A stretch of DNA of 24,785 bases from a virus, in IMG/VR virus record IMGVR_UViG_3300027824_000016, positions 1 through 24,785 of that record; one strand, written 5' to 3'. A program made the translations under genes and the position numbers. Below are positions 2,592 through 24,785 of this stretch, piece after piece. The notes beneath the pieces were generated by a model, which saw only the letters and a list, made by a program, of their open reading frames with translations, was not told where the DNA came from and ran no database searches. The number at the start of each line of letters is the position of its first letter. The first letter of the stretch is position 1.

Positions 2592-3098
2592 TTACCGCTC
2601 AGCGGCGTCCCCTGGGTGGGATTGTCGGCGGTCCAGGGCGACCCTGCGGGCCTGGAGAACCGCACCCCGGGTGGACTTGGGGCTGCACTTGGCCTCCCAC
2701 TCCCTGCGCCTCGACGCCCGGGCGTCGTACTGGGCCTGGTTGAGAACCCCGTTGTAGCGCATCCAGAGCTGCTTGTGGCCGTAGACCGGGGTCCGCTGCA
2801 TGATGGACCAGTCCTCGTAGGGATGCTGGGTCTTGAGCCAGTAGCGGACCTCTCGGATGAACCAGGCCAGCCGGTCCACGGTCTGCTTCACGGTGACCCG
2901 GTGGTCGTTCTTGTCCCGGCCCGCCTTGAACTCGGCCAGCATCGCGAACTCGCCCGGGTGCTGACGCAGTACTTCCATCCCCGCTTCCCAGGGCTTGGGC
3001 TTCTTGGGTCCCCGGTTATTGCGAGCCGTGGCGGGGGGCGGGGGTTCCCCGAAGATCGGCTGGGAGTGGATCTTCTCGCTGGGACGCGGCTCAGTCAC
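2592..3098 (-). CDS. Hypothetical protein, Trp/Arg-rich
   Basis: A protein of 168 residues if it starts at GTG 3098. That start is preferred because it has AAGGA 8 nt upstream and overlaps the previous gene by 8 nt. An upstream in-frame TTG at 3128 is possible but has no ribosome site. The first 40 residues are proline-rich and probably disordered. Residues about 60-150 are helical with many aromatics (WFIREVRYWL, EDWSIMQR, KQLWMRYNG) and a basic C-terminus with several RR pairs. I do not recognise the family. It is the last gene of the four-gene cassette that starts at 3631, just before the fibre genes. A nucleic-acid-binding role would fit the charge but is a guess. Confidence 0.7.
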   Translation of the reverse strand: MTEPRPSEKIHSQPIFGEPPPPATARNNRGPKKPKPWEAGMEVLRQHPGEFAMLAEFKAGRDKNDHRVTVKQTVDRLAWFIREVRYWLKTQHPYEDWSIMQRTPVYGHKQLWMRYNGVLNQAQYDARASRRREWEAKCSPKSTRGAVLQARRVALDRRQSHPGDAAER

Positions 3099-3348
3099 CC
3101 GGCATATCCTTCCCCAGAAGGCGGCCAAGAGACGCCCAAGCCGGGTAGTCGTAGGGCAACATCTCGTCCCAGAGCTTGTCGGCCACCTCGCATAGCTCGT
3201 CGTAACTGGCCCAGAGGTCGAGTACCTCGGCGGTGTGGGTGTCCATCGGGCGGCGCTGGGTAGCCACGGCCAACCACTTGCGGACGTTCTCGATGCTTAC
3301 CCCCCTCATCCGCCGAACGTATGCCCCGCCATCGGTCTGGATGCTCAC
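3091..3348 (-). CDS. Hypothetical small protein
   Basis: An 85-residue protein starting at GTG 3348, in a GTGA overlap with the stop of the ribbon-helix-helix gene. It is helical and acidic in the second half, with aromatics (LDLWASYDELCEVADKLWDE) and a basic N-terminal third. No cysteine pairs, membrane segments or catalytic motifs are seen, and no family is recognised. Tight overlaps on both sides show that it is co-translated with its neighbours in the 3631-2592 cassette. Confidence 0.7.
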   Translation of the reverse strand: MSIQTDGGAYVRRMRGVSIENVRKWLAVATQRRPMDTHTAEVLDLWASYDELCEVADKLWDEMLPYDYPAWASLGRLLGKDMPGD

Positions 3349-3533
3349 TCGCCCTCCAAGGTAAGCCAGAGGCCCAGGGCATCGTTCAAGACATCTGTCC
3401 AGTTATGCAGATCCGGCTTGCCCTTGGCGATCTCCTTGTCGATCACGTCGGCTACGGGGACCGGGACGCGGACGGACTTGTGGACCGTGTTGCCCGAGAG
3501 CCCTGTGGTGGCCGGTGTAAAGCGGGGTCTCAT
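3345..3533 (-). CDS. Ribbon-helix-helix-like DNA-binding protein
   Basis: A 62-residue protein. The start at ATG 3533 is chosen because it overlaps the upstream stop in an ATGA and gives a compact domain; the longer frame to 3620 would read through the zinc-knuckle gene. After a short basic leader, residues about 18-28 (VHKSVRVPVPV) form a likely beta strand, followed by a helix (ADVIDKEIAKG), a turn (KPDLHNW) and a second helix (TDVLNDALGLWL). That is the layout of Arc/ParD-type ribbon-helix-helix repressors, which dimerise and bind operator DNA through the strand. It sits second in a cassette whose promoter carries a palindrome at 3634-3646, so it could act there, but this is inference. Confidence 0.65.
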   Translation of the reverse strand: MRPRFTPATTGLSGNTVHKSVRVPVPVADVIDKEIAKGKPDLHNWTDVLNDALGLWLTLEGE

Positions 3534-3631
3534 GGCAGCGGCACCGGCTTGTGATCGGAATAACACCACGGGCACAAAGGTTCCCCGTGAAACATGAAGA
3601 CCCGGCCGCATCGGGGGCATGGTTGGAGCAC
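3530..3631 (-). CDS. 33-residue zinc-knuckle microprotein
   Basis: A small frame from GTG 3631 to TGA 3530 encodes 33 residues with two CxxC pairs (CPRC at about residues 5-8 and CPWC about 22-25). That is the minimal arrangement for one zinc ribbon. Its stop overlaps the next gene's ATG (ATGA), which supports translation. There is no Shine-Dalgarno sequence upstream. A promoter-like -35/-10 pair places the transcription start at or next to the GTG, so it may be read from a leaderless message. Function is unknown; zinc ribbons of this size often contact DNA, RNA or a protein partner. A longer upstream frame exists but is antisense-type shadow of the 1453-residue gene. Confidence 0.6.
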   Translation of the reverse strand: MLQPCPRCGRVFMFHGEPLCPWCYSDHKPVPLP

Positions 3632-3666
3632 ATGGTTACCGTAACACGGTGTATCCGCAGGGTCTA
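3631..3666 (-). promoter_or_regulatory. Candidate leaderless promoter for the 3631-2592 cassette
   Basis: Reading the minus strand, TAGACC (3666-3661, four of six matches to TTGACA) is followed by a 17 nt spacer and TACGGT (3643-3638, the TAnnnT form). Standard spacing from the -10 puts the transcription start at 3631, which is the G of the GTG start codon. The -35 box includes the stop codon of the preceding gene. It has the same layout as the promoter at 24447-24419. Confidence 0.5.
3634..3646. repeat. Palindrome GTTAC-S-GTAAC, copy 1 (possible operator)
   Basis: On the plus strand this reads GGTTACCGTAACA, an inverted repeat with a single central base and five perfect pairs (GTTAC/GTAAC). 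It spans the -10 box of the promoter just upstream of the zinc-knuckle gene. A second copy is at 24420-24432, also over a -10 box. A repressor-binding role is inferred. Confidence 0.5.
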
Positions 3667-6600
3667 GTACCCGCTTGGTGTGGGCGGCGGGGTGAGGGTC
3701 GCCGCGGGTGGTGCGCCCGGATACGCGGCGAGGGCCTGGTTGTACATGGCCGCGAGCTGCTGGGGGCTGATCTCGTAGTCGGCGTTGAGCGGGTTGGGGA
3801 CGCTTGCGTAGCCTGCCAGCCCCGAGAAGTCGCCGGTCTGGAGTGCCTGGGCGGACGCGGCCTTGGCCACCTGGTATCTGGCCGCCTCGTCCTTGGCCGC
3901 GATCTGCTTGAGATTGACCGTGGCCACCTGGCCGGGGATGCCGAGGGACTGGTAGATCCCCTTGATGGCCGCCTTGCGGTTGGTCTGCCACTCCCCTCTC
4001 GCCGCGCCCACGGCCTGCATGAGGGTGCCCAGGGTGCCCACCTGGGGGATGAACTGCTCCACCGCGGTCCCGAGATTTCCCTGGTTGCCGGCGGTCGAGA
4101 TGCCGTAGATGTCGTTGTAGGTCAGGGTCGGGTAGAGCGAGTTGTCCCCGTACTGGGCCAGGCTCGGGGAGATGAACGAGAGCGGGGCCGTGATGGCGGG
4201 GTTGAGCGCCTGGATGTATCCGGTCAGCGAGGCGTAGTTGGCCACGTCCCTGAATGGGTCCAAGAACCGCGTGTCCACCGTGGTCACGTTGCCCATGTTG
4301 TCGGGGCTGCCCAGTTGGAGCAGGAACTGGAGGCGCATCGGGAGGCCCTTGGGCACGGCCGCCGATTCGTGGTAGGCCACCTGGGAGAGCACCATGGCCC
4401 GCCAGGGGTGGTCGAACGGATACGTCATCACATAGCCGAGGATGTGGCGTGTCCAGCCGTAGAAGGGCATGAACGAGGTGGCGATGCTGCGCTCGATGGG
4501 GGACATGCGACGGAGGTTGCCGAAGACCTGCTCGACATGGTGCTGGCCCTCGTAGGCCATCCGCTCGGCCGTCATGGCTACTCGCTCGCCGGTCACCGGG
4601 TCGGTGAAGGACCCCCTGCGCCCAGCCTTGGCCGACCCGTCGAGCAAGGCGATGGAGGACTGCATCTCGCGGACGAAGCCGGTGAAGGCGTAGTTGAGGT
4701 CGCCCAGGGCCTTGACCCAGTGGAGCGGCTTTGCCGCTTGAATCGCGATCTTCTGCCGCAGGACGATGTGTTCCTCGGCTCCCAGACGCACCGCATCATG
4801 GGCAGCCCGGAAGTTGTACTCGCTCAACGGGTCGGGCTGGAAGCCGATCTCGGTGTTGCGGGTGTGGCGCATGAACTCGTCCACCTGGCCGGTGCGGACC
4901 ATCTTCCACGCCTTGCCGATCATGGTCAGGGCGTAGGGGCTGGAACGGAGCGCCAGCATGGTCGTGCCCCCGAACAGGACGTGGGCCGTGTAGCGCGGGG
5001 ACAGGGCCAGGATCGAGAACCGGAAGACCTCGGTGCCCTTCCCGATCAGGCCAAGCTCGGTGTGCCGGTTGATGTTCTCCAGGGCCCGGACGGTGGAAGC
5101 GGGGAGGTACAGGTCCTCGTTTCCCCAGCTAGGGAGCCGGAAACCGTAGAGAGCCTTTGGGTCGAACTTGCGGAGGCCGTACTTGACCGCGGCGTCCTCG
5201 ATCGACGTAGGCACCGTGCCGGTCTTGCCGTGCCCGAACCCGAGGCCGTTCATCTGGACGATGAAGTCCCTGAGTTGGCCCGCAGTCACCGTGATCGGCT
5301 TGATGTGGTGTTCGAGCAGGTCGATGTGGGCGTCCCGCATGACGGTCTGCCTGAGTGCCTTGTCGGCGGCCACCTCGAAGTTGTGGCGGTCGCTGGTCAG
5401 GTCGAACATCCGGGCCTTGACCGCATCCTCCTTCGGTATCCCCCGGCCCACGATGGGGTGGATCTGCTTGCCGACCCGGGACTCGTCCCAGGCGTGGGTG
5501 ACCGGGACGTAGGGGGGGTCGAGGCCCTGGGCCTGGAGGGTCTGGATCTCGTCGCGGGCGCTGGTGGCCGCCTCGGTCCTGGCCTGGGTGGCCTCGGAGC
5601 GCAGTTCGGCGTCCATGGTCGGGTCGTCGAAGATGTCGTGGAAGTAGAGCATGGAGAGTTCGGCCAGGATGCGGGGGTCCTTGGTCCGCTCGGCCACCTC
5701 CCGCTCGGTCAGGCTCAGCTTGCGCTGGAGGCCCTTCTTCACCGTGTCCATGACCTTGGTGTGCTTGAGCAGGTTCCGCTCGTAGATGGCCATGTAGGCG
5801 TCCCGGTAGTTGGCCGGCGGGTGCTCCCAGATCGACTCCTGGTAGGCACGCAGGGCGTCCCCGTAGACCTTGGCCGCCTGTAGCCACGCCTTGGCCGTCT
5901 TGCGTCCCTCGACGATCTCGCGGTGGCGGTCGGTCTGGGCGGTGAGGCGCTTGTGGTGGTCCAGGCGCTGCTCGGCCCGCTCGGCCCGGTGGCGGTCCTT
6001 CAATGCCTGGGTGCCGATGCTGTCGTCGTGGCTGATCTTGCGACGCGACGCCAGCCATGCCTGGTTGACCCTGGCTTCTTCCTGGCGGACCCCTCGCATG
6101 ATCTCGGCCAGTTGCTCGGGGGTGGCCCGGACCGCGGCGTTGTCCCCCCGGGTCCTCACGGCATCGATGAGTTGGGCACGCAGGAGGTCGTTGCGCTCCC
6201 TGGCCCGCCGCGTCTTCTCGCCCATCAGGGTCCGCTCCCGTGAGTGGCGCTGCCTGAGTGAGCGTCCCTCGGCCTGGCGCTCCCGCTTCGCGGCATCGGC
6301 GCGGTCCCTCAACGCCTGCTGGTGCTCGTCGAGAGCGGTGACCTCGTGCTGAGCCTGGCCCTCGCGCTCGTAGATCCGGTCGTCGATGGCCCTGGTCAGG
6401 CGCCTCCCGATGGAGACCACCTTGGAGGTCTGGGCCACCAGGTCCCGTACCGCCATATAGGCCGGGTCCACCGAGGCGTCCATGGCCTTGGCGTCCCAGC
6501 GTGAGAGGGACCGGAGCATGTGGGGGACCAGGGCGGAAATCTGGTCGATCTTGCCGTCCTTCATCAACTGGATCAGGCTCTCGACCTCCCCTCCCTGGCC

Positions 6601-8025
6601 AAGGAGGGTTTCTGCCTGTGGACGACGCTTGATCGACTCGGCCCGGAACTTGGTCTTGGGCCGCGAGACCGTCTCGTCCAGGCGGGAGTCGGTGGCCATG
6701 CGCTGCTGGGCTGCCTGGAGGGCGGTGGTGAGCTTCCCGGCCGTGGTCTCCAGAACCGCCCGGTTGGCCTGGGCGTGCTTGACGAGGCGGTCGGTAGGCT
6801 CCAGTTCCCTCAGAAAGCCCTCACGGGCCTTTTCTGCCCCTTTCCAGGCTTTGGCGGGCTCTGCCACCGGAGAGGACTCGTAGAGCCCTGTACCGCCGTC
6901 TGTGGTCCTCAGGGCGACGACTGCGGGGTTCCCCTTCTCGTCCAGCCTGGACAGCTTGTCCTCGGCCTCGTAGGACATGACCCGCTGCCACTGTTCCAGG
7001 GCCTCACGCAGGGCGGGGGTGGTGGCCGGGTCGTCGAGGGCCTGGGCCACGACATCGCCCTTCTTCAAGGCGAAGTTGTCGAGGATGGCGCCCATCTTGG
7101 CCTTCTCGGCCGGGGACAGGTGCTGGACGGCCTCGGAGAAGGGGGCGTAGATCCAGTTCTTGGTGTCGAAGGCCATCTGGCCGGTGTCGTTGACCGCCGC
7201 GGCCAGATCCCGGGTGGCCTTGGTCACGTCGGTGTAGTTGTGCCCCTGGGCCCAGGAGTTGACGATCTCCCCCAGGCTGAGCTTGCGGGGCATCCCGTTG
7301 TCCAGGGTGACGCCCAACTTGGACAGTCGTCCAGAGGGGGTGATGTTGGCGATCCCCTTGGCGATCAGGCTGGCCGAGGAGGCGTCCCCGATCTGGGCCG
7401 GGGTCATGCCCAGGTGTCCCGCGAGGCGTGCCCCGAGTTCGGTGGTGGCCGCCGCCCTGGCCGTCAGGCCCCCGAAGATGTCCCCGAACGGCACCACGTC
7501 GAGGCCACTGACCAGGGGGTGCTCGGCCAGTTTCTTGGCACCCGAGGAACCGGACAGGGACGGGTCGGTCTGGAGGACGGTGCCGACATCGGCCGCCCCG
7601 GGGATCAGGCTGAGCAGGGTGTCGTTGAGCCAGTTCCCGACCGTGCCCCCGAAGGTCTTGGCCTCCAGCCTTTTGGGGTCCGCGATGTCCATGACCGTGT
7701 TCTGGGTCAGGTGCCACAGTCCCTCAGGCAGGTTGATGAGGCCGGTGGCGATGGAGGCGACATCGTGGCGGGCGTTGCCGAAGACGTTGGAGGGGTTCGG
7801 GTTGTCGGTCGGGGCTGGGGTGACGTTGTTCGGGTTCTGGGCGGCCAGGATGGCCCGGTTCCGCTCGGCCGCGGACATCCCGTAGCCGTAGTTCTGGAGC
7901 CGTTGCTGGTCGTACTGGTAGACCGGCAGGTAGGTGGAGGCTGGGATGCCCTGTGCCTGTGCCCAGGCAGCCGCCTTGTTCCACTGGGAGGTGAAGGTCT
8001 CGACCGCCGGCCGTGAAGTGGCCAC
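3664..8025 (-). CDS. Giant internal virion / DNA-ejection protein candidate
   Basis: A 1453-residue protein, the largest gene here, starting at GTG 8025 with GGAGGG 6 nt upstream. Residues about 1-110 are Ala/Asn/Gln-rich. Residues about 545-735 are a long, very highly charged helical stretch (many R/E, for example RDRADAAKRERQAEGRSL) likely to form coiled coil. Around 1000-1040 and 1185-1225 are hydrophobic aromatic segments that could enter a membrane. The C-terminal 200 residues are Ala/Gln/Pro-rich. It follows two other Gln/Ala-rich proteins, like the trio of internal proteins that T7- and P22-type phages eject to build a DNA channel; T7 gp16 is of similar size. I see no clear lysozyme or transglycosylase motif. 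A large polyvalent protein is the main alternative. Coding is certain; role is inferred. Confidence 0.8.
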   Translation of the reverse strand: MATSRPAVETFTSQWNKAAAWAQAQGIPASTYLPVYQYDQQRLQNYGYGMSAAERNRAILAAQNPNNVTPAPTDNPNPSNVFGNARHDVASIATGLINLPEGLWHLTQNTVMDIADPKRLEAKTFGGTVGNWLNDTLLSLIPGAADVGTVLQTDPSLSGSSGAKKLAEHPLVSGLDVVPFGDIFGGLTARAAATTELGARLAGHLGMTPAQIGDASSASLIAKGIANITPSGRLSKLGVTLDNGMPRKLSLGEIVNSWAQGHNYTDVTKATRDLAAAVNDTGQMAFDTKNWIYAPFSEAVQHLSPAEKAKMGAILDNFALKKGDVVAQALDDPATTPALREALEQWQRVMSYEAEDKLSRLDEKGNPAVVALRTTDGGTGLYESSPVAEPAKAWKGAEKAREGFLRELEPTDRLVKHAQANRAVLETTAGKLTTALQAAQQRMATDSRLDETVSRPKTKFRAESIKRRPQAETLLGQGGEVESLIQLMKDGKIDQISALVPHMLRSLSRWDAKAMDASVDPAYMAVRDLVAQTSKVVSIGRRLTRAIDDRIYEREGQAQHEVTALDEHQQALRDRADAAKRERQAEGRSLRQRHSRERTLMGEKTRRARERNDLLRAQLIDAVRTRGDNAAVRATPEQLAEIMRGVRQEEARVNQAWLASRRKISHDDSIGTQALKDRHRAERAEQRLDHHKRLTAQTDRHREIVEGRKTAKAWLQAAKVYGDALRAYQESIWEHPPANYRDAYMAIYERNLLKHTKVMDTVKKGLQRKLSLTEREVAERTKDPRILAELSMLYFHDIFDDPTMDAELRSEATQARTEAATSARDEIQTLQAQGLDPPYVPVTHAWDESRVGKQIHPIVGRGIPKEDAVKARMFDLTSDRHNFEVAADKALRQTVMRDAHIDLLEHHIKPITVTAGQLRDFIVQMNGLGFGHGKTGTVPTSIEDAAVKYGLRKFDPKALYGFRLPSWGNEDLYLPASTVRALENINRHTELGLIGKGTEVFRFSILALSPRYTAHVLFGGTTMLALRSSPYALTMIGKAWKMVRTGQVDEFMRHTRNTEIGFQPDPLSEYNFRAAHDAVRLGAEEHIVLRQKIAIQAAKPLHWVKALGDLNYAFTGFVREMQSSIALLDGSAKAGRRGSFTDPVTGERVAMTAERMAYEGQHHVEQVFGNLRRMSPIERSIATSFMPFYGWTRHILGYVMTYPFDHPWRAMVLSQVAYHESAAVPKGLPMRLQFLLQLGSPDNMGNVTTVDTRFLDPFRDVANYASLTGYIQALNPAITAPLSFISPSLAQYGDNSLYPTLTYNDIYGISTAGNQGNLGTAVEQFIPQVGTLGTLMQAVGAARGEWQTNRKAAIKGIYQSLGIPGQVATVNLKQIAAKDEAARYQVAKAASAQALQTGDFSGLAGYASVPNPLNADYEISPQQLAAMYNQALAAYPGAPPAATLTPPPTPSGY

Positions 8026-20900: not shown

Positions 20901-21280
20901 TTCACACCCTGGTCATGGAGCGCCTTGCGCTGGGGGTCGAGGTCGGCTTCCCGGTCCGACGAGGACATGCCGTGGAGGTCGTTCAAGGCGTCGGTGTCGC
21001 GGGCGTCCACCTGCTCCACTTTCACGTCCATCCCGAGCCTGCGGGACTCGCGGTCTATGCCCTGGGCCAGGACATTATCGAACTCCCTGCGGTTGGCAAC
21101 GTACTGGCCGACGACCGGGTTCCATCCCTCGTAGCCGCCGCCCGAGACCGTGGTTCGGATCTGTACGGAGTCCCAGCGCCGGGGTGAGATGGCACCGCAC
21201 TGGGGGCACATCCCCTCTGGCCCGCGGGAATGGTTGGTGAACCGGCCGTGGACCTTGCACCGGAACTCGAACTCGGTCAC
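20897..21280 (-). CDS. Zinc-ribbon protein, FmdB-like
   Basis: A 127-residue protein. GTG 21280 is chosen because it overlaps the terminase stop (GTGA) and starts the domain cleanly; a longer frame to 21319 would enter the terminase gene. Residues about 3-40 hold FEFRCKVHGRF then MCPQCGAI, giving CxxH and CxxC ligands of a zinc ribbon similar to FmdB. Residues about 45-125 are a helical, charged tail (REFDNVLAQGIDRESRR, then DREADLDPQRKALHDQG). Small zinc-ribbon proteins are often found between the terminase and portal genes in phages. The role is unknown; a link to DNA packaging is inferred from position. Confidence 0.75.
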   Translation of the reverse strand: MTEFEFRCKVHGRFTNHSRGPEGMCPQCGAISPRRWDSVQIRTTVSGGGYEGWNPVVGQYVANRREFDNVLAQGIDRESRRLGMDVKVEQVDARDTDALNDLHGMSSSDREADLDPQRKALHDQGVK

Positions 21281-23001
21281 AGCCAATCCTCGATCTCGTT
21301 CTCGACGACCAGGGACCATCCCCCGTCCTGGACCCCGAATCTAGCCCCCGCCGCGTTCATAACGGGGGTTCCCACGTTCGGGAGCCTGGGCATACCGGGG
21401 CCGACCGGGCCACCGGGACGCAAGCTGAGCAGGTTGGACTCGTTGACCGAGTCCCAGTCCATCGTCTGGCTCTCGGTCACCACGGTCATTATGCAGACCA
21501 TGAGGCTGGTTACGCAGTCGTCGTGGCCCGAGCGTCTCGCCGGTCCCCAGGTCCCGTCCTCCTGGAGGATGTACTGGGTCATCTCGTAGTAGGTGGCCGG
21601 GTGGTGGATGGTCACCCCGAGTCGCTTTACCAGGCCCTGGGTAGTGCCCACCGCCCAGGACTTGTTGCCCCGGGACATCGACCAGGCCAGGGTGGCGTTG
21701 GAGCGGCGCACCCGGTCGGGCCGGCGGTCGAACCAGATGTACGGGTAGTTGTTGTCCCGCAGCACGGTCAGGATGTTGGAGCCACCGCCCTGGATCTCGG
21801 TGTTGGCCATGGCCATGTTGTAGAAGTAGCAGAGTTCGAGAACCTTGTTGCCCAGCGTCTTGGGGTCGGTGTGGCCGTGCCAGACCGCCACCTGCTCCAT
21901 GGTCGCCCGGTCGATGACCTGGATGCAGGCCGGGTCGCCCTCCAGGGTCAGGGTCGGGTCGATGGCCACCGCGTACTGGCGCTTCTTGCGGGGGTCGGGG
22001 TACTGGTAGACCCAGAGTTTGCCACCGGGGTCGGGCTGGAAGGACATCTGGCCGTTGTCGTTGAACAGGAACCCGCGGTCACAGTCCACGTCCGGCTCGT
22101 AGCAGAGTCGGAGCTTGGGCAGGTCGAAGACGTTGGAGCCGGTGGACAGGAAGGCTTCCTCGGGAGTGCAGGGGTACTCCTCGTGGAACTTGTCGAGGTT
22201 CCCGAACGAGGCGATCTTGCGCCTGCGCCAGGCCAGTTTGGCCAGGGTCATGTGGTCGGGGAACTGGGCGAGTAGATCGCGCTCGTCCTCGTCCAGATCA
22301 GCGAAGGTGAGTTGGTGGTTGCGGTTGGCGTACTCCTCATGCAAGAACCAGGGGAAAAACATCGGCGTGAACATGGAGTCCGAGTCGGGGTCACAAGCCG
22401 ACATCCAGGTCTCGTAGTAGTAGCCGCCGACTCCCTCGGCGGTGGACTCCAGAACGACGATGGTGCCCGGCTCCTCGGGGACCGACTCGGTGAGGCCGGA
22501 CACGTCAATGGTGCCGTCAGGCCACCGGGCCACCTCGGAGCAATGGACGGCGCGGAGGGTCTTGCCACGGCCGGGGTCCTTCTTGGTGGCGGTGTCCGCG
22601 ATGATCGAGGACTCCAGGCCCTTCCACTCAAGGTAGCCCTCCCGGTCGTAGCGAGTCTGGAAGTCGGCCCGGAACGGTCCCATCTCCCAGTACCGCTTGG
22701 TCATGGAGAACAGGTAGTTGGAGTCGTCGCGCTCGGTCGAGAGGACCAGGGCGTTGGTGCCGGGGAACAGGAAGGCCCAGAGGAACAGGACGGCCTCGGT
22801 GATCGTGGACAGTCCGAGCTGGCGGCCCTTGAGGATGATGAGACGGATCGGTTTTTCGTGGTTGAAGTCGTACTCGATCTTGGCGACGTAGGCCCGCTGG
22901 GCCCAGGCGAAGGCATCGTCCTTGCGGAGCCGGATGACCTGGCCCTTCTTGGTCTTGATCGACAACTGCTCCAGAAGCGGCCAGAGGTCGAGGTTCTTCA
23001 C
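21277..23001 (-). CDS. terL: Terminase large subunit (packaging ATPase and nuclease)
   Basis: A 574-residue protein starting at GTG 23001. The ATPase half has a Walker A-type loop at residues 59-66 (GRQLGLST), a Walker B-type segment at about 150-156 (LRAVHCSE) ending in Glu, and a coupling motif at about 186-190 (STAEG). The nuclease half has acidic residues fitting an RNase H-like site: Asp348 (AVAIDPT), Glu402 (NTEIQGG) and Asp494/495 (SGHDDCV). This enzyme cuts concatemeric DNA and drives it through the portal using ATP. It follows the small subunit candidate and precedes the zinc-ribbon and portal genes, the normal order. Length fits the family. Confidence 0.93.
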   Translation of the reverse strand: MKNLDLWPLLEQLSIKTKKGQVIRLRKDDAFAWAQRAYVAKIEYDFNHEKPIRLIILKGRQLGLSTITEAVLFLWAFLFPGTNALVLSTERDDSNYLFSMTKRYWEMGPFRADFQTRYDREGYLEWKGLESSIIADTATKKDPGRGKTLRAVHCSEVARWPDGTIDVSGLTESVPEEPGTIVVLESTAEGVGGYYYETWMSACDPDSDSMFTPMFFPWFLHEEYANRNHQLTFADLDEDERDLLAQFPDHMTLAKLAWRRRKIASFGNLDKFHEEYPCTPEEAFLSTGSNVFDLPKLRLCYEPDVDCDRGFLFNDNGQMSFQPDPGGKLWVYQYPDPRKKRQYAVAIDPTLTLEGDPACIQVIDRATMEQVAVWHGHTDPKTLGNKVLELCYFYNMAMANTEIQGGGSNILTVLRDNNYPYIWFDRRPDRVRRSNATLAWSMSRGNKSWAVGTTQGLVKRLGVTIHHPATYYEMTQYILQEDGTWGPARRSGHDDCVTSLMVCIMTVVTESQTMDWDSVNESNLLSLRPGGPVGPGMPRLPNVGTPVMNAAGARFGVQDGGWSLVVENEIEDWL

Positions 23002-24101: not shown

Positions 24102-24193
24102 CAACGCCCCGTCCGCGTGACGATCAGGAAACCGATCCAGACCACGCCCCAGAGCGCGAGGAGGCCGTAGACGATGGCCGCGTCGATCTTCAC
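24101..24193 (-). CDS. 30-residue single-pass membrane peptide
   Basis: A short frame from GTG 24193 to TGA 24101 encodes 30 residues. It has a GGAGGA site 3 nt upstream, its start overlaps the HTH gene's stop (GTGA), and its stop overlaps the next ATG (TGATG). Residues about 5-26 are hydrophobic with two Trp (AAIVYGLLALWGVVWIGFLI), flanked by a Lys near the start and Arg residues at the end, giving one probable transmembrane helix. It lies between a regulator and a membrane-anchored protein, so it may be a partner or holin-like peptide. Function unknown. Confidence 0.65.
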   Translation of the reverse strand: MKIDAAIVYGLLALWGVVWIGFLIVTRTGR

Positions 24194-24411
24194 GACTCCT
24201 CCATCCGCCGGCCCCAGGTCTTAGTGGCCGCCTGGCGCGAGATGTCCATGGCGTCCCCGATCAGTTCCCAGGAGACTCCCTGTCTCCGTGCCGAGGCTAC
24301 CGCCAGGTGGAGTTTTGCGTCCGCATCCTCGCGGGCCAAGAAGTGCTTGCGGATGACGGTGTAGCAGCGGCGCTTGACCGACTCGATGGGGGAATCCGGC
24401 CAGCGGGGCAT
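24190..24411 (-). CDS. Small helix-turn-helix protein
   Basis: A 73-residue protein from ATG 24411. Residues about 28-70 contain a compact helix-turn-helix with the pattern ARRQGVSWELIGDAMDISRQAATKTWGRR, split here as ARRQGVSWELIGD and AMDISRQAATKTWGRR. That is typical of actinobacterial and phage HTH proteins (SWxxIGxxLxxSRQAAxxxxG). The N-terminal half is a charged helix (REDADAKLHLAVA). No ribosome site is visible upstream of the ATG; the promoter at 24447-24419 places transcription at or within one or two bases of it, so it may be read leaderless. The palindrome at the promoter could be its own operator. Confidence 0.75.
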   Translation of the reverse strand: MPRWPDSPIESVKRRCYTVIRKHFLAREDADAKLHLAVASARRQGVSWELIGDAMDISRQAATKTWGRRMEES

Positions 24412-24418
24412 GCAGAGA

Positions 24419-24447
24419 AGGTTACGGTAACCCTACCCTCATGTCAA
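24419..24447 (-). promoter_or_regulatory. Candidate leaderless promoter
   Basis: On the minus strand a consensus TTGACA (24447-24442) is followed by a 17 nt spacer and TAACCT (24424-24419, a TAnnnT -10 box). The expected start is at 24412-24411, where the ATG of the HTH gene lies, and no Shine-Dalgarno is present. It begins two bases after the stop of the upstream gene. Confidence 0.7.
24420..24432. repeat. Palindrome GGTTAC-G-GTAACC, copy 2 (possible operator)
   Basis: A perfect 13-base inverted repeat with one central base lies over the -10 box and adjacent spacer of the promoter at 24447-24419. A near-identical copy is at 3634-3646 over another promoter. It may be the site for the HTH protein it precedes or for the ribbon-helix-helix protein at 3345-3533. 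Confidence 0.55.
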
Positions 24448-24449
24448 GG

Positions 24450-24785
24450 CTACAACTGGGTGGCGGGGGTCTCCGTCCCGGCTGCGGCAGCGGGGGTGGC
24501 GGTAGGGGTGCCCACGGTCAGGACCGCGGTGACGGTCGGGGCCACGACGGCGGGGGTCACAGTGACCGCGACGGGGGCCGGGTCAGCGATGACCGTTCCG
24601 TTCGGGTCCAGGGCGCCGGTCAGGGCGGCCGAGACACTGGAGTCTCCCGCGGCCTCGAAGGCGACCGAGGCGTCCAGGGCGTCGGTGGCCGTCACAGCCA
24701 GGATGCCGGTGTTGTCGGACGAGAAGCTGGCGGTCGCGCCGGTAACGGTGGCCGGTGAGCCGTCCGCGTTGACGAACGTCACTGA
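24450..24785 (-). CDS. Ig-like domain protein (5' end off window)
   Basis: The frame is open at the right edge and ends at TAG 24450. A GTG at 24782 exists, but the frame continues upstream (codon TCA at 24785), so the N-terminus is probably cut off. The 111 visible residues form a beta-sandwich pattern (VTFVNADGSPATVTGATASF, then SSDNTGILAVTATDALDASV and AGDSSVSAALTGALDP) resembling bacterial Ig-like (Big2-type) domains, with an Ala/Thr/Pro-rich C-terminal tail (residues about 75-110). Such domains occur in phage surface proteins and may help virions stick to surfaces. It belongs to the gene group before the promoter at 24447. Confidence 0.7.
   Translation of the reverse strand, partial: SVTFVNADGSPATVTGATASFSSDNTGILAVTATDALDASVAFEAAGDSSVSAALTGALDPNGTVIADPAPVAVTVTPAVVAPTVTAVLTVGTPTATPAAAAGTETPATQL

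Follow-up and report, generated by a model that had tools for sequence, protein, structure and literature searches.

We analyzed a window of 24,785 bases from a viral record that is itself a fragment; whole-looking related records are 37 to 40 kb long. The window holds two copies of a GTTAC-N-GTAAC palindrome, each at a predicted promoter (Table 1). At site 1, read on the minus strand, TAGACC (3666-3661) is followed by a 17-nt spacer, TACGGT (3643-3638), 6 nt, and the GTG at 3631. The earlier note had described this layout, with the palindrome over the -10 box, and it proved correct on re-reading. The TAG of the -35-like TAGACC is also the stop codon (3666-3664) of a 1453-aa ORF, for which we found no match among 50,697 phage records. 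The cassette behind this promoter starts with a zinc-ribbon-like ORF (CPRC...CPWC, GTG start) whose stop overlaps the ATG of a ribbon-helix-helix (RHH)-like ORF. Pfam searches gave nothing above cut-off for the 33-aa ORF and no match for the 62-aa ORF, and general family searches gave no convincing match for its neighbors at 3091-3348 and 3530-3631. The best Foldseek matches of the 62-aa model were ParD-type RHH chains, but with E values above 1.

Table 1. Features at the two palindrome sites (coordinates within the window)
Feature	Positions	Strand	Remarks
62-aa ribbon-helix-helix-like ORF	3345-3533	-	Conserved across 12 aligned relatives
33-aa zinc-ribbon-like ORF	3530-3631	-	CxxC...CxxC counterparts at the same place in relatives
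Predicted leaderless promoter, site 1	3631-3666	-	TAnnnT 6-7 nt before the start in 17 of 30 related junctions
Palindrome GTTACCGTAAC (GTTAC-C-GTAAC), operator-like, site 1	3635-3645		Covers -10 box, 3 nt before start
1453-aa ORF, function unassigned	3664-8025	-	Relatives found in other records
Large terminase subunit (TerL)	21277-23001	-	Similar to annotated terminase large subunits; alignment
73-aa HTH protein, candidate regulator	24190-24411	-	phrog_686, E 5.8e-8; RelI match in PDB
Predicted promoter region, HTH/packaging operon	24411-24456	-	Two overlapping readings
Palindrome GTTACGGTAAC (GTTAC-G-GTAAC), operator-like, site 2	24421-24431		9 nt before ATG 24411

The site 2 copy overlaps the -10 region of the HTH gene's own promoter, which can be read as TTGACA-17-TAACCT-7-ATG or as TAGCCT-17-TACCGT-12-ATG. 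In the second reading the palindrome is aligned with the promoter as it is at site 1; the leaderless start is predicted here from spacing alone. The HTH ORF sits on the packaging side of the map, with the TerL gene downstream in the same direction. Compared with RelI in the PDB, the 73-aa protein alone gave an E value of 3.6e-4, and as a family profile it was homologous to both Mycobacterium tuberculosis RelI (7.5e-15) and ClpC2/Rv2667 (8e-7). A fold search with the 73-aa protein returned no meaningful match, and a search for its relatives in a viral contig collection found none there.

Sites 1 and 2 lie 20,786 bases apart. The earlier note had reported the palindrome at two intergenic promoters; our search of all 24,785 bases bore this out, with exact copies in the two promoter gaps, none in ORFs and none elsewhere in the fragment (shuffle expectation 0.00). 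Every copy with up to 2 mismatches lay inside an ORF. A single palindrome of such size in the 60-nt gap at site 1 is unremarkable (p=0.30), and palindromicity of single junctions was not above chance over 30 junctions (combined p=0.71). In 300 dinucleotide shuffles of the fragment's six gaps (747 nt), none reproduced the observed occurrence of a single palindrome family in two gaps (p<=0.003). We dropped whole-contig recurrence of perfect palindromes as an uninformative measure, because many coding palindromes recur and the fragment's GGTCAC-1-GTGACC outscores GTTAC; the gap-restricted test (any 5-base arm, any spacing up to 7) was devised after it. Applied to 29 contigs, with p=1 given to those lacking a recurrent family, it yielded a combined p of 8.5e-6, which supports recurrence generally rather than each named motif, as some contigs are close relatives and in several, including the related records G1 and G4, a G-run or a different palindrome from the named one ranked first.

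Related loci were found through the 1453-aa protein (32 loci) and through TerL (80 loci). Past the stop codon of the 1453-aa homologue, the distance from TAnnnT to an ATG or GTG is exactly 6 nt in 10 of 30 junctions and 7 nt in another 7; other spacings occur 0 to 5 times, and shuffling gives about 0.8 per spacing. Taking TAnnnT at 6 to 7 nt as the mark of a predicted leaderless promoter, one is present at site 1 and at 17 of the 30 related junctions, and this retention of spacing argues that the promoter is conserved. Small CxxC and RHH genes come next in many of these junctions. A neutral sigma-70 scan found nothing at a 9-of-12 threshold, so the support is comparative and does not derive from consensus strength. 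Three relatives carry a leaderless-type promoter before the gene after portal (G1 25088, G3 4161, and 31753_23 33519); we looked for one behind the fragment's portal gene and saw none.

Exact GTTACNGTAAC was absent from four related records with the same gene order, and among 128 loci it occurred, besides the fragment's own copies, only in L109 at 6897. The earlier note had named such missing conservation in relatives with unchanged gene order as an outcome that would refute shared control. We read the loss of the exact palindrome as probable divergence of the operator, an interpretation formed after seeing the result, because the promoter is retained, as is the tendency to repeat some palindrome, and what differs is the palindrome's sequence. 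In G1 (IMGVR_UViG_3300038479_000011), GCAAGGNNCCTTGC lies in gaps at 2795, 30899, 30918, 32369, and 33307; in G3, GCAGGNNNNCCTGC at 27506, 32507, 33417, 35034, and 35053; in 41412_48, GCAACNNNNGTTGC at 656, 26942, and 26958; and in G4, TGTCACCCNNNGGGTTACA at 5566, 25372, and 37657. Among the G4 sites are counterparts of both sites of the fragment, one at the zinc-ribbon/RHH promoter and one at a promoter that precedes the packaging genes. Exact copies of GCAAGGNNCCTTGC, GCAGGNNNNCCTGC, and GCAACNNNNGTTGC are confined to gaps in their respective records, and at one mismatch the G3 and 41412_48 palindromes also have copies inside genes. These counts are descriptive, since the motifs were picked by comparison and then scanned, and the gap limits are approximate, as they come from a simple home-made gene caller. 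In many other related contigs we saw no repeated gap palindrome. Together, these comparisons support the palindrome as a lineage-specific element and a putative operator shared by sites 1 and 2.

Other repeated palindromes were also seen. G1 has a second family, TTGTAC-N6-GTACAA, with three copies within 130 bases of its early region (33151-33280). TGTAC/GTACA palindromes are repeated in gaps of 47160_15182 (14760, 25416, and 26681) and 47160_11057 (1735 and 3137), with one copy in each over the promoter behind the 1453-aa homologue.

Grouping near-identical contigs by eye, we counted about 16 contig groups with an HTH counterpart in the TerL neighborhood. Of these groups, 9 had TGCA-N8-TGCA palindromes with two or more inner pairs, versus 3 of 60 HTH-negative contigs, an association that may partly reflect shared ancestry, since the HTH-bearing contigs are also closer relatives. 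The last A of the palindrome is usually the first base of an ATG, and in L061, L055, and L057 it is the HTH gene that begins at this ATG. The fragment's operator differs from this TGCA class in sequence and half-site spacing, which speaks against the HTH protein as its binder. By eye, the end of the recognition helix is where the fragment's protein is most divergent (TKTW versus xxR[YF]), and the predicted operator would match this divergence, a correspondence that is suggestive only.

We propose that both sites are controlled by a phage repressor acting as a dimer, whose likeliest identity is the 73-aa RelI/ClpC2-type HTH protein, and give this a probability of roughly 0.45. Under this proposal, the palindrome at site 1 would be an 11-bp operator covering the -10 box of the zinc-ribbon/RHH promoter, and the copy 20.8 kb away, over the HTH/packaging promoter, would be bound by the same repressor. 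The HTH protein, encoded directly at site 2, would bind both as a dimer and block RNA polymerase at the -10 box and start, thereby autoregulating the operon that encodes it and keeping the RHH cassette repressed. Repression, dimer binding, and the HTH protein as binder are what we infer. We favor this protein because of its homology to ClpC2, a documented autorepressor whose palindromic operators lie at a leaderless start, and because the relatives show this layout. The earlier note's suggestion of one regulator for both operons thus fares unevenly: the two sites do lie at promoters only, and several relatives repeat palindromes of their own (in G4, at both counterparts), but the exact sequence is not conserved.

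Recurrent operators also occur in relatives that lack the HTH gene, which implies another regulator at least there. The RHH protein could fill that role in the fragment too, autoregulating site 1 and, at site 2, repressing the packaging operon. Autoregulation is common among RHH proteins, the 62-aa model has ParD-type RHH chains as its best fold matches, and a recurrent palindrome at the RHH-cassette promoter of the HTH-lacking relatives G4 and 32174_17 makes this protein a serious rival. Yet its fold matches are above the E value of 1, the fragment's RHH protein groups with the HTH-bearing clade (99/99 support), and in that clade we saw no recurrent operator at the RHH promoter, a result that also weighs against the HTH protein. 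We consider control by the RHH protein rather unlikely on balance. We judge it unlikely, too, that a repressor from the missing early region binds both sites, with the HTH and RHH genes only as targets. About 14 kb of early region would be missing if the genome is like its relatives, which are mostly 37 to 40 kb, and several related records carry further operator copies there; but among 30 early-region or neighboring proteins of G1 and G3 we recognized no such repressor, save the HTH protein and a WhiB-like gene.

Finally, the palindrome may be no operator, having arisen by chance or as a side effect of the resemblance between the -10 sequences (GTTAC..T) of the two promoters. The lack of enrichment at single junctions would fit this, as would the presence of only two copies in the fragment and of GGGTTACA at the -10 of two related records, G2 and G4. 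Gap recurrence nevertheless exceeds that of shuffles, and the recurrent palindromes of relatives bear no relation to the -10 box, which makes such an origin very unlikely in our view.

Phage_integrase (PF00589) and Resolvase (PF00239) domains were absent from the fragment and from ten related virus records, some of which may be fragments. The absence of these two domains is compatible with other routes of integration; with no integrase domain found, the circuit need not be one of lysogenic immunity. G1 encodes a WhiB-like protein (34474-34833; phrog_472, E 8.8e-25), and this gene together with the HTH family suggests actinobacterial hosts, which would fit leaderless transcription. A genome collection scan returned just two loci, one in an Acidobacteriaceae MAG and the other in an Acidimicrobiaceae MAG, too few to assign a host from them. 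In G3, TerL is apparently split over the record ends (1-1186 and 39551-40270), and G1 carries a direct terminal repeat of 120 bases; each of the two records may therefore represent a complete genome.

These patterns suggest a switch protein, encoded by the phages themselves, with a binding site that has diverged from one phage to another. With considerable doubt, we extend this to a picture of an uncultured, integrase-less phage family in which separate operons are coordinated by a small repressor of the ClpC2/RelI type whose operators merge with leaderless start codons, and in which fast operator turnover leaves related phages with mutually incompatible versions of the circuit. If true, this would provide a compact regulatory circuit for a phage family marked by the 1453-aa protein, which is unmatched in the phage records searched. 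It would also add phage operon control to the roles of the RelI/ClpC2 repressor family, and the diverged pairs of repressor and operator would form a natural set for mapping specificity.

Among known systems, the immunity repressor of the temperate cluster A mycobacteriophages acts at dispersed stoperator sites, which are asymmetric and oriented. The circuit proposed here likewise relies on a single phage repressor with several scattered sites that are specific to a lineage, but the fragment's sites are palindromic, few, and at promoters, and no integrase was found in the records searched. RelI is the closest solved structure to the phage HTH protein by sequence. RelI (Rv2664) is the antitoxin of RelS-RelI and its HTH family is specific to actinomycetes (PMC13284704). 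In contrast, we identified no toxin partner adjoining the phage HTH gene, and the text consulted on RelI does not describe its binding to operators of this kind (PMC13284704).

ClpC2 represses itself from a pseudopalindrome that lies 1 to 2 nt before its leaderless ORF, and many species have another copy upstream (PMC10030653). Its operator, CGTCAAC-n5-GTTGACG, is of another form than the fragment's GTTAC-N-GTAAC sites, which also lie farther from the start. Moreover, the phage HTH protein is without Clp domains, and a second phage operon is covered by the palindrome as well. TTGACA...TGTCAA upstream of a related HTH gene in Curtobacterium phage Root was rejected as a parallel, since an ordinary leader with AGGAGG lies between. 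The likeness to ClpC2 consists of a homologous HTH region, by profile, and a palindrome at the gene's own predicted leaderless promoter (site 2). This layout of operator at leaderless start is also found in the phage relatives and in the cultured Arthrobacter phage PeggyLeg03 (L129, OQ995425.1). There, a tandem GTCAAC-N5-GTTGAC pair (2430-2482) has the published ClpC2 operator form and stands immediately in front of a hypothetical protein gene whose product is related to the RelI/ClpC2-type HTH, with one palindrome ending a few bases before the ATG.
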